Shown: positions 8,772 through 20,978 of the stretch, in pieces
Layout: each line of letters starts with the position of its first letter
Position numbering within the stretch: the first letter of the stretch is position 1
Assembly (NCBI RefSeq): GCF_900103175.1
Contig: NZ_FNLF01000002.1
Span: 1,674,001-1,738,000 of the forward strand
Source of the DNA: Tsukamurella pulmonis
Lineage (GTDB): Bacteria; Actinomycetota; Actinomycetes; Mycobacteriales; Mycobacteriaceae
Direction: 5' to 3'
Length of the DNA stretch: 64,000 nt
Position numbers and translations under genes: made by a program
Notes under the pieces: generated by a model
What the model saw: the letters and a program-made list of their open reading frames with translations, nothing else
What the model was told of the DNA's origin: nothing
Database searches by the model: none

Positions 8772-9647
8772 TCAGCCGATTCGGCGGCCGATGCGCCATG
8801 CGCCGAGCAGGACGAAGGCGACGAACAGGGCGGCGAACAGCAGCCAGATCGACCACTCCGGTACCTCTGCCGAGGCGATGTGGGGGATGAGCCCGTACTC
8901 CTCCCGAACCGTCGTTCGGGCCTCCTCGGAGGTGCCCACCAGGGCGTCGAGCGGGCCTCGGGTGAACGGTCCGCGCATCAGCGTCGCAGCCTGGTTCAGC
9001 GGCAGCAGGTTCATGAACGTCACCACGCCGCTCGGCAGCGCGCCGACGGTGATGTAGGCACCCGCGAGGAAGCCGCCCGCCGTGCCCACGATCGTCGCGA
9101 CCGAGGTGAAGACGCCGGTGGAACCGATGAACGTGACCAGGAAGCTCCAGATCGCGGAGAACAACAGGCAGAATCCGATGAGCTGGGCGTACGCCTGCGC
9201 GAAGGCGCCCACCGAGAGCGCCGCGGAATGGACGACGCCGAGGTAGACGTCCGCGAGCACGAACACCGTCGTACTCAGCGCGACGGACACCGCGAACGCG
9301 CCGAGCAGGTAGCTCAGGATCATCTGCAGCCGGCTGATCGGCGAGACCAGGAAGTCGCGGAAGACGTTGCCCACCCGGTCGTTGACGAACACGACCAGCG
9401 CCGACAGGCTCGTCGTGGCGGTGGTGATCATGACGAGGTTGGCGATCACCCAGGAGTAGACGAAGGCGTCCACGTCGTCCCCGCTCGCGGCGGGGAGGGA
9501 CTTCTGCAGGGCATCCGTCTGCACGCCGCCGAGGAAGGCGGAGAACAGCACGAACAGGATGATCGGCGACAGGAGCGAGAAGAACACCGCCGCCGGATCG
9601 CGGAAGAAGACGACCACGTTGCGACGGGTCAGGTGCAGCAGCGTCAC
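8772..9647 (-). CDS. ABC-2 type exporter, permease subunit (DrrB-like)
   Basis: 291-residue membrane protein with about six hydrophobic segments. The N-terminus is typical of ABC-2 permeases (LTRRNVVVFFRDPAAVFFS, then a hydrophobic helix). A large extracytoplasmic loop follows helix 1, and the cytoplasmic coupling region contains NVFRDFLVSPISRLQ. It should pair with the ATPase encoded immediately upstream, whose stop codon overlaps this GTG start by four bases (GTGA). Being the last gene of the PKS-NRPS operon, it most likely exports the PKS-NRPS product, by analogy with DrrABC beside polyketide lipid genes in mycobacteria. The substrate is inferred from context only. Confidence 0.88.
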   Translation of the reverse strand: MTLLHLTRRNVVVFFRDPAAVFFSLLSPIILFVLFSAFLGGVQTDALQKSLPAASGDDVDAFVYSWVIANLVMITTATTSLSALVVFVNDRVGNVFRDFLVSPISRLQMILSYLLGAFAVSVALSTTVFVLADVYLGVVHSAALSVGAFAQAYAQLIGFCLLFSAIWSFLVTFIGSTGVFTSVATIVGTAGGFLAGAYITVGALPSGVVTFMNLLPLNQAATLMRGPFTRGPLDALVGTSEEARTTVREEYGLIPHIASAEVPEWSIWLLFAALFVAFVLLGAWRIGRRIG

Positions 9648-18400: not shown

Positions 18401-20978
18401 CGCCGTCGCGGCGCAGAGACGCGGTCGTCGCGACGGTCCGCCCGTGGGCGGACGCGGTTTCAGCGATCGCCCGGCCCAGCACCGCGGTGGGGCCGATCTC
18501 CAGGAAGGTCGCGGCGCCGGCGTCGAGCAGTGCCTCCGTCGCCGCGCCGAACAACACCGGACGACGGATGTTGCGCCACCAGTACTCGGCGTCGTGCGGC
18601 GCGGACCCGTCGACCGGGACCGCGGTGCCGGTCACCGTCGAGTACAGGGGGATCGACGGTGCGCCGGGGGCGAGCCCGGCGAGGCTCGCGCGGACCTCCG
18701 CCTCGAGCGGATCCATCGCGCGACTGTGGTACGGCACGTCGCCCGGCACCAGGCGAGCGAAGACGCCGTCGGCGGCGAGCCGCAGCGCCAGCGCGTCCAG
18801 CGCGGCGAGCGGGCCCACGAGGGCGACCGAGTCGGGACTGTTGACGGCGGCGATCTCGACCTCGCCGCGCGCGAGCTCCGGCAGGTCCAGGGCGGCGGCC
18901 TCGCCGTGCGCGACCGACAGCAGGCGGCCGCCGCCGCTCACCGTGTGCTGGATGCGGGCGCGGTGCACGATCACGGTGATCGCGTCGTCGAAGCTCAGGG
19001 CGCCCGCCTCGAGCGCCGCGGCGACCTCGCCGGAGCTGTGGCCGACGATGAGGTCGGGCCGCACACCGAACGATTCCCACAGTCGCGACAGCGCGTACTG
19101 CACACCGAAGTTCGCGATCTGCGCGACCACCGACTCCGCCATCCGGGAATCCGGCTCCGGGGCCAGTAGCTCGGCTGCGAGCGACCACCCGGTGAGCGGC
19201 GCGATCGCGGCGTCACAGCGGTCGATCGCCGCGCGGAAGACGGCGTTGCGCTGCAGCAGGCCCCGGGCCATGCCCCACCACTGCGGGCCCATACCGGTGT
19301 AGACGAAGGCGAGCGGACGGGCGTCGGCGAGCGCCGACCCGGACCGGACGGCCTGGTGCGGGACGCCGTCGGCGGCGGCCCGCAGGGCCTCCGAGGCCTC
19401 CGCGGTCTCGGCGGCGATCACCGCCAGCCGGGCGGCCCGGTGGGCGCTGCGCCGGTGCACGAGAGCCCCGGCGACGGGGACGGCACCGTCGGACTCGACG
19501 AGCCCCGCGTACGCGCCGGCGAGCCCGGCGAGGGCGGCCTCGCTGCGTGCGGCGAGCGGCAGCACGACCGCGACACCGTCGCACTCCTCCACCGGGTGCG
19601 CGGCGGCCGGGCGCGGCCCGTCCACCGGAACGGATTCGAGGATGGCGTGCGCGTTGGTGCCGCCGAAGCCGAACGAGTTCACTCCCGCCCGGAGGGTGCC
19701 CTCCGGGCGCAGCGGCGCGGGCTCGGTGGCGATCCGGATCCGCAGCGCGTCGAGGTCGATCGCCGGGTTGAGCGCGTCGAGGTGCAGGTGCCGGGGCACG
19801 CGCCGATGGGCCAGCGCGAGCGCGGACTTGATGAAACCGACGACGCCCGCCGCGGCCTCGAGGTGACCGAGGTTCGTCTTGACCGAGCCGATCACGAGGG
19901 GGCGGTCCGCCGGGCGCTCGCCCCGGTAGACCTCGCCGATGGCGTTGGCCTCGATCGGATCGCCGACCGGGGTCCCCGTGCCGTGCGCCTCCACGTAGTC
20001 GACGGTGTCCGCGGCGACGCCGGCGTTCGCCAGCGCGGCCGCGATGGCGCGCTGCTGGCTCGCGCCGTTCGGGACCGTGATGCCGTTGGTGCGGCCGTCC
20101 TGGCTGACGGCGGTGCCGAGCACCGTCGCGTAGATCCGGTCACCGTCGGCACGCGCCTGCGCGAGCGGCTTGAGCACGACGAGCGCGGCACCCTCGCCGC
20201 GGACGTAGCCGTTGGCCGCGGCGTCGAAGGCACGGGAGGTGCTGGTGGGGGAGAGGAAGCCGCCCGTGGAGGCGGCGACGGTGAAGTTCGGACTGAGCAT
20301 CAGGTTGACGCCGCCGGCGAGGGCGAGTTCGCTCTCGCCGTTCCAGAGCGACTGGCACGCCAGGTGGATCGCCACCAGCGAGGACGAGCAGGCCGTGTCG
20401 ACGGACATGCTGGGTCCGAGCAGGTCGAAGGCGTGCGAGATCCGGTTGGACAGCATCGTCATCACCACGCCGGTGGCGGTGTGCGCGGCGACGTTCGGCG
20501 GTTCGGCGGCGGAGGAGAACTGCATCTGGCTGTAGTCGAGCGTGAATCCGCCCGTGAAGACCGCGGTCTGCGAGCGCTCGAGATCCTCGGCGCGCAGGCC
20601 GGCGTCCTCGAAGGACTCCCACGCGACCTCGAGCAGCAATCGTTGCTGCGGGTCCATCGAGCTCGCCTCGACGGGGGAGATCCCGAAGAACGCCGGGTCG
20701 AACTCGTCCACGGGATCGGTGAGGAAGCCGCCGCGGCGGACCCGGCTCTTGCCCGGCGTGCGCTCGGGCTCGTAGTAGCGCTCCGTGCTCCAACGGTCCG
20801 CCGGGATGTCGACGATGGCGTCGCGACCCGCGTCGAGCAGGTCCCAGAAGTCCGCGGCGGAGCGCACCCCGCCCGGCAGCCGGCATCCGATACCCACGAC
20901 GGCGATCGGCTCGCGCTCGGCTCGCTCGCTGCCCGTCGTAGTGTGCGTAGCCCCAACCTTCACGGCGATCTCCCCCAT
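15480..20978 (-). CDS. Type I polyketide synthase, one module KS-AT-DH-KR-ACP
   Basis: 1832 residues from ATG 20978. KS with C197 (DTACSSS), H332 (EAHGTGTP) and H372 (NLGHLEA), all intact. AT with GHSSG (S648), preceded by YTGMGPQWWGMARGLL. The specificity region reads VPYHS and does not clearly say malonyl or methylmalonyl. DH with HVVHGATLFP (H949) and DAAFQ (D1109). KR with TGGLGALG near 1433, Y1589, and VDD in place of the B-type LDD. ACP with GVDS (S1746). No ER, loading module or thioesterase is present, so the module extends a supplied starter or acts iteratively, leaving a double bond or hydroxyl. Neither candidate start (ATG 20978 or GTG 21023, 15 residues longer) has a clear ribosome site. 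The ATG was chosen because it gives a normal 22-residue leader before the KS. Confidence 0.93.
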   Translation of the reverse strand: MGEIAVKVGATHTTTGSERAEREPIAVVGIGCRLPGGVRSAADFWDLLDAGRDAIVDIPADRWSTERYYEPERTPGKSRVRRGGFLTDPVDEFDPAFFGISPVEASSMDPQQRLLLEVAWESFEDAGLRAEDLERSQTAVFTGGFTLDYSQMQFSSAAEPPNVAAHTATGVVMTMLSNRISHAFDLLGPSMSVDTACSSSLVAIHLACQSLWNGESELALAGGVNLMLSPNFTVAASTGGFLSPTSTSRAFDAAANGYVRGEGAALVVLKPLAQARADGDRIYATVLGTAVSQDGRTNGITVPNGASQQRAIAAALANAGVAADTVDYVEAHGTGTPVGDPIEANAIGEVYRGERPADRPLVIGSVKTNLGHLEAAAGVVGFIKSALALAHRRVPRHLHLDALNPAIDLDALRIRIATEPAPLRPEGTLRAGVNSFGFGGTNAHAILESVPVDGPRPAAAHPVEECDGVAVVLPLAARSEAALAGLAGAYAGLVESDGAVPVAGALVHRRSAHRAARLAVIAAETAEASEALRAAADGVPHQAVRSGSALADARPLAFVYTGMGPQWWGMARGLLQRNAVFRAAIDRCDAAIAPLTGWSLAAELLAPEPDSRMAESVVAQIANFGVQYALSRLWESFGVRPDLIVGHSSGEVAAALEAGALSFDDAITVIVHRARIQHTVSGGGRLLSVAHGEAAALDLPELARGEVEIAAVNSPDSVALVGPLAALDALALRLAADGVFARLVPGDVPYHSRAMDPLEAEVRASLAGLAPGAPSIPLYSTVTGTAVPVDGSAPHDAEYWWRNIRRPVLFGAATEALLDAGAATFLEIGPTAVLGRAIAETASAHGRTVATTASLRRDGDDAASFGAALAELWVRGVDVDLTPLAPRAPMRSLPAYPWQRDRYWSEGEAGRRERLADTVEPYLGDRADGALPAWRRLLDGTAPRSLADHVVHGATLFPGAGYIEIAAEVARDEYGASACTLLDVAFETALVHGGGGTYLVDTTLDADSGRIAVHGRVPGAGRWARHATAVLRPAPSVAPRIDLAPITGTSFTEDVLYDRFRDAGFAYGPAYRLLHDVTVGDGAATARIREISAEPVAQRAPVLEPSVLDAAFQLLLPLAFERAAGTTLIPVGVDRVVIHGRADGPVFARATARVSPDPTAISGDVVLATGDGQVLAEVEGFTVRVLDEVDGPPQRVGTDWVYEQAWEPQAADAGERAPLDGVWLLLADDGGVAAGLAERLTAAGGTPVLLRAGAVAEGALPPSDRRALAAALERTVPDGRVRGIVHLWSLDASPDGDDPLRWPAHDAVLSVVHLAAELENRGIAAPTFLVTDGAQPITGGVSEAELLQSSLLGIGRVLHHELMGLQARLVDLDPHDRYGSTDLLFDELAVAGTDEDQIAFRGGERLVPRLHASARSGGRIPARMRGDGAYLVTGGLGALGLLVIVALAQRGAGHIVVTSRSGLPPRSEWDGLTDPAQRDAVTAIRAAEAAGATVHVVPVDVTDARALADGLADLHRSGVPPLRGVIHSAGAVDDQILVRMTQEQVERVVRPKVLGAWALHRATATEPLDFFTLFSSISAVIPSPGQGNYAAGNAFLDALAHYRRAQGLPALSINWGPWDAGMIASLGLRDLYGQRGIDLIDPETGMTLLAELLGSSEVQQGVVSAHWPTVIASYALRPSLVAHLGRTEDAEGEDGESILDRLAAAAGGERGAIVLDGVRLTVSRVLRMAAEHVPDDEPLGRLGVDSMLATELRIRIEQQFQAAPSMAFLLDGASVATIAAELTTLLDVAADDGAGDAEVEDLAALLADLDDDAVAALLARSETTEPNAGGPR

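Follow-up and report, generated by a model that had tools for sequence, protein, structure and literature searches.

A 64,000-nucleotide stretch of the 4.78 Mb Tsukamurella pulmonis genome (contig NZ_FNLF01000002.1, positions 1,674,001 to 1,738,000; hereafter the window) carries on its minus strand, from 20978 to 8772, an operon of four overlapping genes encoding a polyketide synthase (PKS), a nonribosomal peptide synthetase (NRPS), a DrrA-like ABC ATPase, and an ABC-2 permease, all with intact catalytic motifs. We consider it probable that the four genes act as one cassette that builds a polyketide chain iteratively, joins it to glycine, releases the conjugate reductively, and exports it. A more specific reading, in which an iterative polyene PKS of the tetramate type and a separate glycine module with a reductase domain produce exported polyene N-acylethanolamines (or glycinals), is offered tentatively. 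The operon is real, conserved and coherent; family logic gives the predicted chemistry its footing, and the product is a prediction. The parts are all of known kinds, and their combination (a separate tetramate-type iterative PKS, a glycine-loading C-A-PCP-R module, and an exporter) seems undescribed as far as our searches reached.

An earlier annotation made from the sequence alone (the original prediction) had described a PKS–NRPS–exporter operon here, and Pfam and NCBIfam returned the same coordinates, gene order, and domains. The junctions between the genes are ATGA, ATGA, and GTGA, each a 4-base overlap, as it had also claimed. The absence of an enoylreductase (ER), a thioesterase (TE), and a starter ligase from the four-gene operon was likewise found with Pfam.

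Domain organization and relatives of the PKS

The iterative-type PKS (1832 aa; 15480..20978, minus strand) comprises a ketosynthase (KS) with a C-terminal extension (19491..20912; PF00109, PF02801, and PF16197), an acyltransferase (AT; 18345..19307) with VPYHS at the specificity position, a dehydratase (DH; 17412..18188; PF21089 and PF14765), a ketoreductase (KR), the catalytic half of which lies at 16122..16697 (PF08659), and an acyl carrier protein (ACP; 15636..15827) followed by a conserved acidic tail. The catalytic residues, previously said to be intact, were found in all five domains, namely C-H-H in the KS, GHSxGE in the AT, HxxxGxxxxP and LDAAFQ in the DH, GxGxxG and the tyrosine in the KR, and the ACP serine, and these motifs are kept in 11 aligned Tsukamurella rows. 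The ATG at 20978 fits as the start codon, with orthologues aligning from codon 1–4 in 7 of 10 cases and from codon 20–22 in the remaining three. Of 12 rows, all but the frame-broken L038 keep the acidic, helix-like C-terminal tail, a possible docking helix.

Outside the genus, the best full-length matches to the PKS were in the genomes G099 (44% identity, 1254 bits), G049 (44%, 1227 bits), and G063 (43%, 1195 bits), and a stand-alone PKS was found in G008, a Tsukamurella genome without the operon (43%, 1319 bits). The G099 and G049 proteins are fused KS-AT-DH-KR-ACP-C-A-PCP-TE enzymes. Each lies beside a fatty-acid hydroxylase and either one or two proteins resembling amine oxidases, with an alcohol dehydrogenase also present at the G049 locus. 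These neighbourhoods correspond to the tetramate-macrolactam gene set given in PMC11724479, according to which an iterative PKS/NRPS produces a tetramic acid that carries two polyene chains. The VPYHS motif is common to the window PKS and both of these synthetases. The KR block (475 aa) scored 256 to 286 bits against G099, G049, G063, and G008 and 164 bits against the next locus; these domain scores cover the compared loci only, and some loci of PKSs of at least MAS length end before the KR, so the comparison may lack them. A KS tree (39 rows, 32 different) placed the window PKS in a firm group with those of G008 and G063 (96/88). A tree from the PKS motif alignment was flagged for long branches, and placement does not rely on it. 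The kinship seen in the full-length protein, the KR, and the KS tree therefore makes iteration likely. The original prediction had raised iteration as a possibility, which is strengthened because the iterative tetramate-macrolactam type is among the best full-length matches outside the genus.

A conserved glycine code in the NRPS

The NRPS (1476 aa; 11053..15483, minus strand) has the domain order C-A-PCP-R behind a conserved, arginine-rich, helix-like N-terminal stretch. This stretch and the acidic tail of the PKS plausibly form a docking pair. The condensation (C) domain (14101..15348) has an intact HHxxxDG motif, and the serine of the peptidyl carrier protein (PCP; 12298..12492) is present. 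In the adenylation (A) domain (12592..13995), position mapping on an alignment to linear gramicidin synthetase gave the code DILQLGMIWK, and the canonical glycine code is DILQLGLIWK; by its code, the window A domain reads as a putative glycine domain. As a positive control, the same mapping on two tetramate-type A domains returned DVGEVGSIDK and DVGELGSIDK, which we take to fit the ornithine code. DILQLGMIWK is invariant in all 11 full-length NRPS sequences compared (the window, nine other genomes of the genus, and a T. tyrosinosolvens record, L083, that is nearly the same as L031), as are the catalytic residues of the C, PCP, and R domains; the frame-broken L038 dropped out of this comparison by length. 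The glycine loading claimed earlier thus gains a mapped and conserved code as its predicted basis.

Predicted reductive release and export

The C-terminal domain of the NRPS is a thioester reductase (R; 11104..12177, minus strand; of the male-sterility type in Pfam) with the motifs GxxGxxG, Ser, and YxxxK, so that the Ser/Tyr/Lys residues are intact. Among solved chains, it was closest to MxaA of the myxalamid system (278 bits), with the reductase domain of a type I PKS, 8v1x, next (255 bits); the scores of carboxylic acid reductases did not exceed 117 bits, and PsoA from a fungus reached 59 bits. This relationship supports the reductive release machinery foreseen in the original prediction. 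Myxalamid is listed in PMC2835699 among the R domains experimentally found to yield alcohols by four-electron reduction. Acting on a glycyl thioester, such a reduction would give an ethanolamine amide. Taken alone, an alcohol end of the product has about an even chance.

Two other reductase-like sequences occur in the same genome. One, a frame of 1100 aa at G000:C2:1666042 that has an R domain and resembles carboxylic acid reductases, was considered as a partner and rejected, as ~15 kb and other genes separate it from the island. A further reductase-domain match, at G000:C2:4426443-4427117, is inside a 3490-aa open frame.

The two-gene ABC exporter was also recovered, as a DrrA-like ATPase (470 aa; 9644..11056, minus strand) that scored 262 bits against TIGR01188 (DrrA), below the cut-off of 312, and an ABC-2 permease (291 aa; 8772..9647, minus strand). 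The permease was detected by PF01061 in a longer frame containing 8772-9647 (39 bits, above the cut-off) and scored 27 bits against TIGR01247 (cut-off 223). An N-terminal extension of the ATPase (10535..11056), made up of a conserved peptide and a Pro/Ala-rich linker, is 115 to 179 aa long in the eight sequences aligned, all those with an intact junction. The peptide is the threonine-rich VERTTTTLR (VERTPTTLR in one sequence), and the linker after it is variable. The pair may export the product.

Proposed pathway and alternative explanations

In the proposed pathway, the PKS would load malonyl units, start without a separate ligase, and iterate to build an unsaturated (polyene) chain, its cycles ending at the KR and DH because an ER is absent. 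The NRPS C domain would receive the chain, perhaps via the matched terminal helices, and join it by an amide bond to glycine on the PCP. The R domain would then use NAD(P)H to reduce the N-acyl-glycyl thioester; an N-polyenoyl ethanolamine, the primary alcohol, is the most likely end point and the N-acyl glycinal the other. The DrrA/B-like pair would export the product.

Several observations weigh against this pathway, beside the partial coverage of the KR comparison. The step in the KS tree that leads to the tetramate pair is weak (81/49), the firm KS kin in G008 and G063 are stand-alone PKSs without an assigned product, and the same 95/92 set of the tree includes four PKSs whose frames are at least as long as MAS. 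DH identity is ~26–31%. The C domain scored 190 to 191 bits against G049 versus 254 against G043, and neither the C nor the A domain is closest to the tetramate domains; the NRPS therefore seems not to have been inherited with the PKS from a tetramate cluster. Finally, the similarity of the R domain leaves two- versus four-electron reduction unfixed. A split homologous cluster in G043 was also considered and rejected, as the frames on its contigs C4 and C197 are AMP-binding/KS-AT-DH and C-A-methyltransferase proteins.

One alternative, which we regard as unlikely, differs in the last steps. If the final PKS cycle left a β-keto group and the R domain stopped at the aldehyde, the N-β-ketoacyl glycinal could close by a Knoevenagel reaction into a 3-polyenoyl pyrrolinone, in the style of fungal PKS-NRPS-R enzymes. 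The tetramate relatives of the PKS end in a ring-forming β-keto acyl group, the R catalytic residues are intact, a TE is absent, and the fungal PKS-NRPS PsoA is among the matches of both the R domain and the PKS, distantly for R. However, the R domain is far closer in score to MxaA than to PsoA (278 versus 59 bits), and the operon has no cyclase or oxidase gene.

A second alternative, which we hold to be similarly improbable, dispenses with iteration: the PKS would extend a fatty acyl starter, supplied by fatty acid synthase (FAS), by a single unit, giving an enoyl or 3-hydroxyacyl chain and an N-acyl-aminoalcohol lipid of the envelope. It draws on the position of the KS near PKSs of the length of mycolata lipid synthases in the KS tree, on the scores of the PKS (921 bits against NF041183, the Pks2 model of NCBIfam, and 753 bits against the solved MAS), and on the mycolate envelope of the host stated in PMC12187902. 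By contrast, an ER and an acyl-AMP ligase are absent from the operon, the KR is closest, among the compared loci, to the tetramate-type and stand-alone KS-AT-DH-KR-ACP enzymes, and the Pks2 score is below the curated cut-off (2400). A 6-methylsalicylate-type aromatic PKS making an aroyl-glycine derivative is very improbable: bacterial aromatic iterative PKSs have the same domain order, and genes resembling flavin halogenases lie on the flanks of the two nearest stand-alone PKSs, but the solved 7wvz and 8i4y (named Beta-ketoacyl-acyl-carrier-protein synthase I), which we take to be bacterial aromatic synthases, scored 485 to 487 bits versus 753 to 789 for MAS and the best assembly-line chain.

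If the proposed pathway to polyene N-acylethanolamines is true, this would be a very small system of two synthases and an exporter, with tailoring enzyme and regulator absent from the operon, in which the chain-length control of the iterative PKS and the choice of the R domain between two- and four-electron reduction could be read from one product. Two enzymes would then suffice, as a minimal route, to give a polyene chain an endocannabinoid-like head group. Animals use N-acylethanolamines as signalling lipids, and some carriers are of human origin (T. tyrosinosolvens from sputum; T. conjunctivitidis and T. ocularis, to judge from the species names); hence the product could bear on host contact. 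Among the matches listed in the open-access literature, no described Tsukamurella product or cluster of this layout was found, nor, in what is a partial library, any precedent for N-acylethanolamine synthesis by an R domain.

Comparison with characterized systems

The iterative PKS/NRPSs of polycyclic tetramate macrolactams (e.g., IkaA) share with the operon the order KS-AT-DH-KR-ACP then C-A-PCP and the VPYHS motif, and they are among the best PKS matches outside the genus. However, they are single proteins with an ornithine code and a TE, whereas the Tsukamurella system consists of two proteins with a glycine code and an R domain; the phytoene-dehydrogenase-like cyclases, hydroxylase, and alcohol dehydrogenase are not beside the window synthetase, and the window operon has an ABC exporter. 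The glycine A code, the R domain in place of a TE, and the missing cyclases rule out that the operon is itself a tetramate-macrolactam cluster. MxaA, the terminal module of the myxalamid system, has the closest solved R domain and the same C-A-PCP-R order, and in both systems a polyketide chain on one amino acid meets a reductive release domain; myxalamid assembly uses alanine and a multimodular PKS, whereas the window operon uses glycine by its code and a single PKS module. MAS and Pks2 lipid PKSs are related to the window PKS over KS-AT-DH and differ from it in the points given above.

The stand-alone PKS clusters of G063 and G008 contain the sister group of the window KS, and in G063 an ABC ATPase and an ABC-2 permease adjoin the PKS. 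They differ from the operon in that an NRPS is absent among the genes tested and flavin halogenase-like proteins are present instead, with a TE in G008. In G063, which belongs to the same GTDB family, the KS-AT-DH-KR-ACP protein (L091:7535-17883) is adjoined by flavin halogenase-like proteins, the ABC exporter, and a Na/H exchanger-type protein; in G008 (L076:821-11063), it is adjoined by flavin halogenase-like proteins and the TE. The halogenase-like proteins of the two loci are 46–53% identical. BLAST found no match between the permeases of G063 and the window, so this PKS type may have been paired with an exporter on two separate occasions.

An accessory island found in Tsukamurella among the genomes sampled

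In G013, which lacks the operon, ettA and nas are separated by an empty site of ~290 bases, the ends of which match window positions 21284-21353 and 8668-8719. Because both flanks are matched, the operon is one accessory block, a discrete island at about 8720-21283 that holds all four genes. The empty site in this sister species offers a natural comparison. The neighbours are housekeeping genes, a nas-like gene and NirB on one side and EttA with a gdh-like gene on the other.

The NRPS occurs in 11 of the 16 genomes of the genus that were compared, that of the window included. Among the 15 others, nine have it near full length at 79–89% identity, and G014 has it in three pieces at 85–92%. Within the stretches examined, six of the 11 carriers have both ettA and nas as flanks, three have one, and two have none. 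ettA and nas are neighbours in three of the five non-carriers (G013, G009, and G010), and the stretches examined in G007 and G008 showed no nas. The gap in G009 and G010 is ~1.6 kb and holds another open reading frame of 324–337 aa (L101:2436-4025 and L100:14211-15782, respectively), which resembles a medium-chain reductase by eye.

A single scan of named genomes with exact peptide patterns from the NRPS returned six Tsukamurella records at 84–91% identity and otherwise one Fibrobacter match at 34%. The plasmid collection gave 176 matching records, of which one, from T. tyrosinosolvens, reached 88% and the other 175 were below 60%. The samples comprised 81 genomes of the order and 60 of the class; the genome searches scored some candidates per genome, so that a distant copy may be missed. 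The best NRPS match outside the genus was 656 bits (35% identity) among 80 genomes of the order sample and 650 bits among 45 genomes of an earlier draw. Within these limited samples, the operon was found in Tsukamurella only. The original prediction had spoken of mycolata; on these samples its scope narrows to Tsukamurella.

The ratio of nonsynonymous to synonymous substitution rates (dN/dS) was 0.08 to 0.27 across 18 pairwise comparisons of the PKS, NRPS, ATPase, and permease genes, and the operon is under purifying selection. Both the PKS and the NRPS are in several pieces in L038, and the PKS is in pieces in L083; the gdh-like neighbour gene of L038 is also in pieces, which points to sequencing errors in that record.

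We also considered the product as the contact signal through which Tsukamurella would induce Streptomyces metabolism. This is unlikely because other mycolic-acid genera induce as well, according to PMC12187902, and the operon was found in Tsukamurella only.

Flanking genes and further observations

A consensus scan of 20900-21400 gave one terminator-like site inside ettA and no promoter-like site; in particular, no sigma-70 consensus was found at 20979..21353, the intergenic region from which the PKS and ettA diverge; an Rfam scan of the window gave no match. The large protein on the ettA side, without a match in NCBIfam, is presumably an NAD-glutamate dehydrogenase. On the other side, one frame at 4748-8662 joins an assimilatory-nitrate-reductase half to a CysJ-like half (best models below cut-offs), and the annotation of the T. 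tyrosinosolvens copy of the nas-side gene reads bifunctional nitrate/sulfite reductase protein.

In T. tyrosinosolvens NCTC13231 (L083, NZ_LR134452.1 168945-205357), an integrase and phage genes adjoin the operon, and the PKS reads in two pieces. A luciferase-like flavin oxidoreductase is annotated after the permease in T. tyrosinosolvens; it is not in the window and was rejected as a member of the cassette, the other carriers not having been searched for it.

The window genome has a second PKS cluster, L078 (G000:C2:1086000-1105900), with KR-ACP, KS-AT-KR-ACP, KS-AT-DH-KR-ACP, and KS-AT-ACP-C proteins, an ABC ATPase, and an ABC-2 permease; PKSs of G002, G008, G013, and G015 group with it in the KS tree. 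A stand-alone ketosynthase-type protein is encoded at 46919-48223 of the window, and its GC content at third codon positions (GC3), 0.79, is the lowest in the window gene list.

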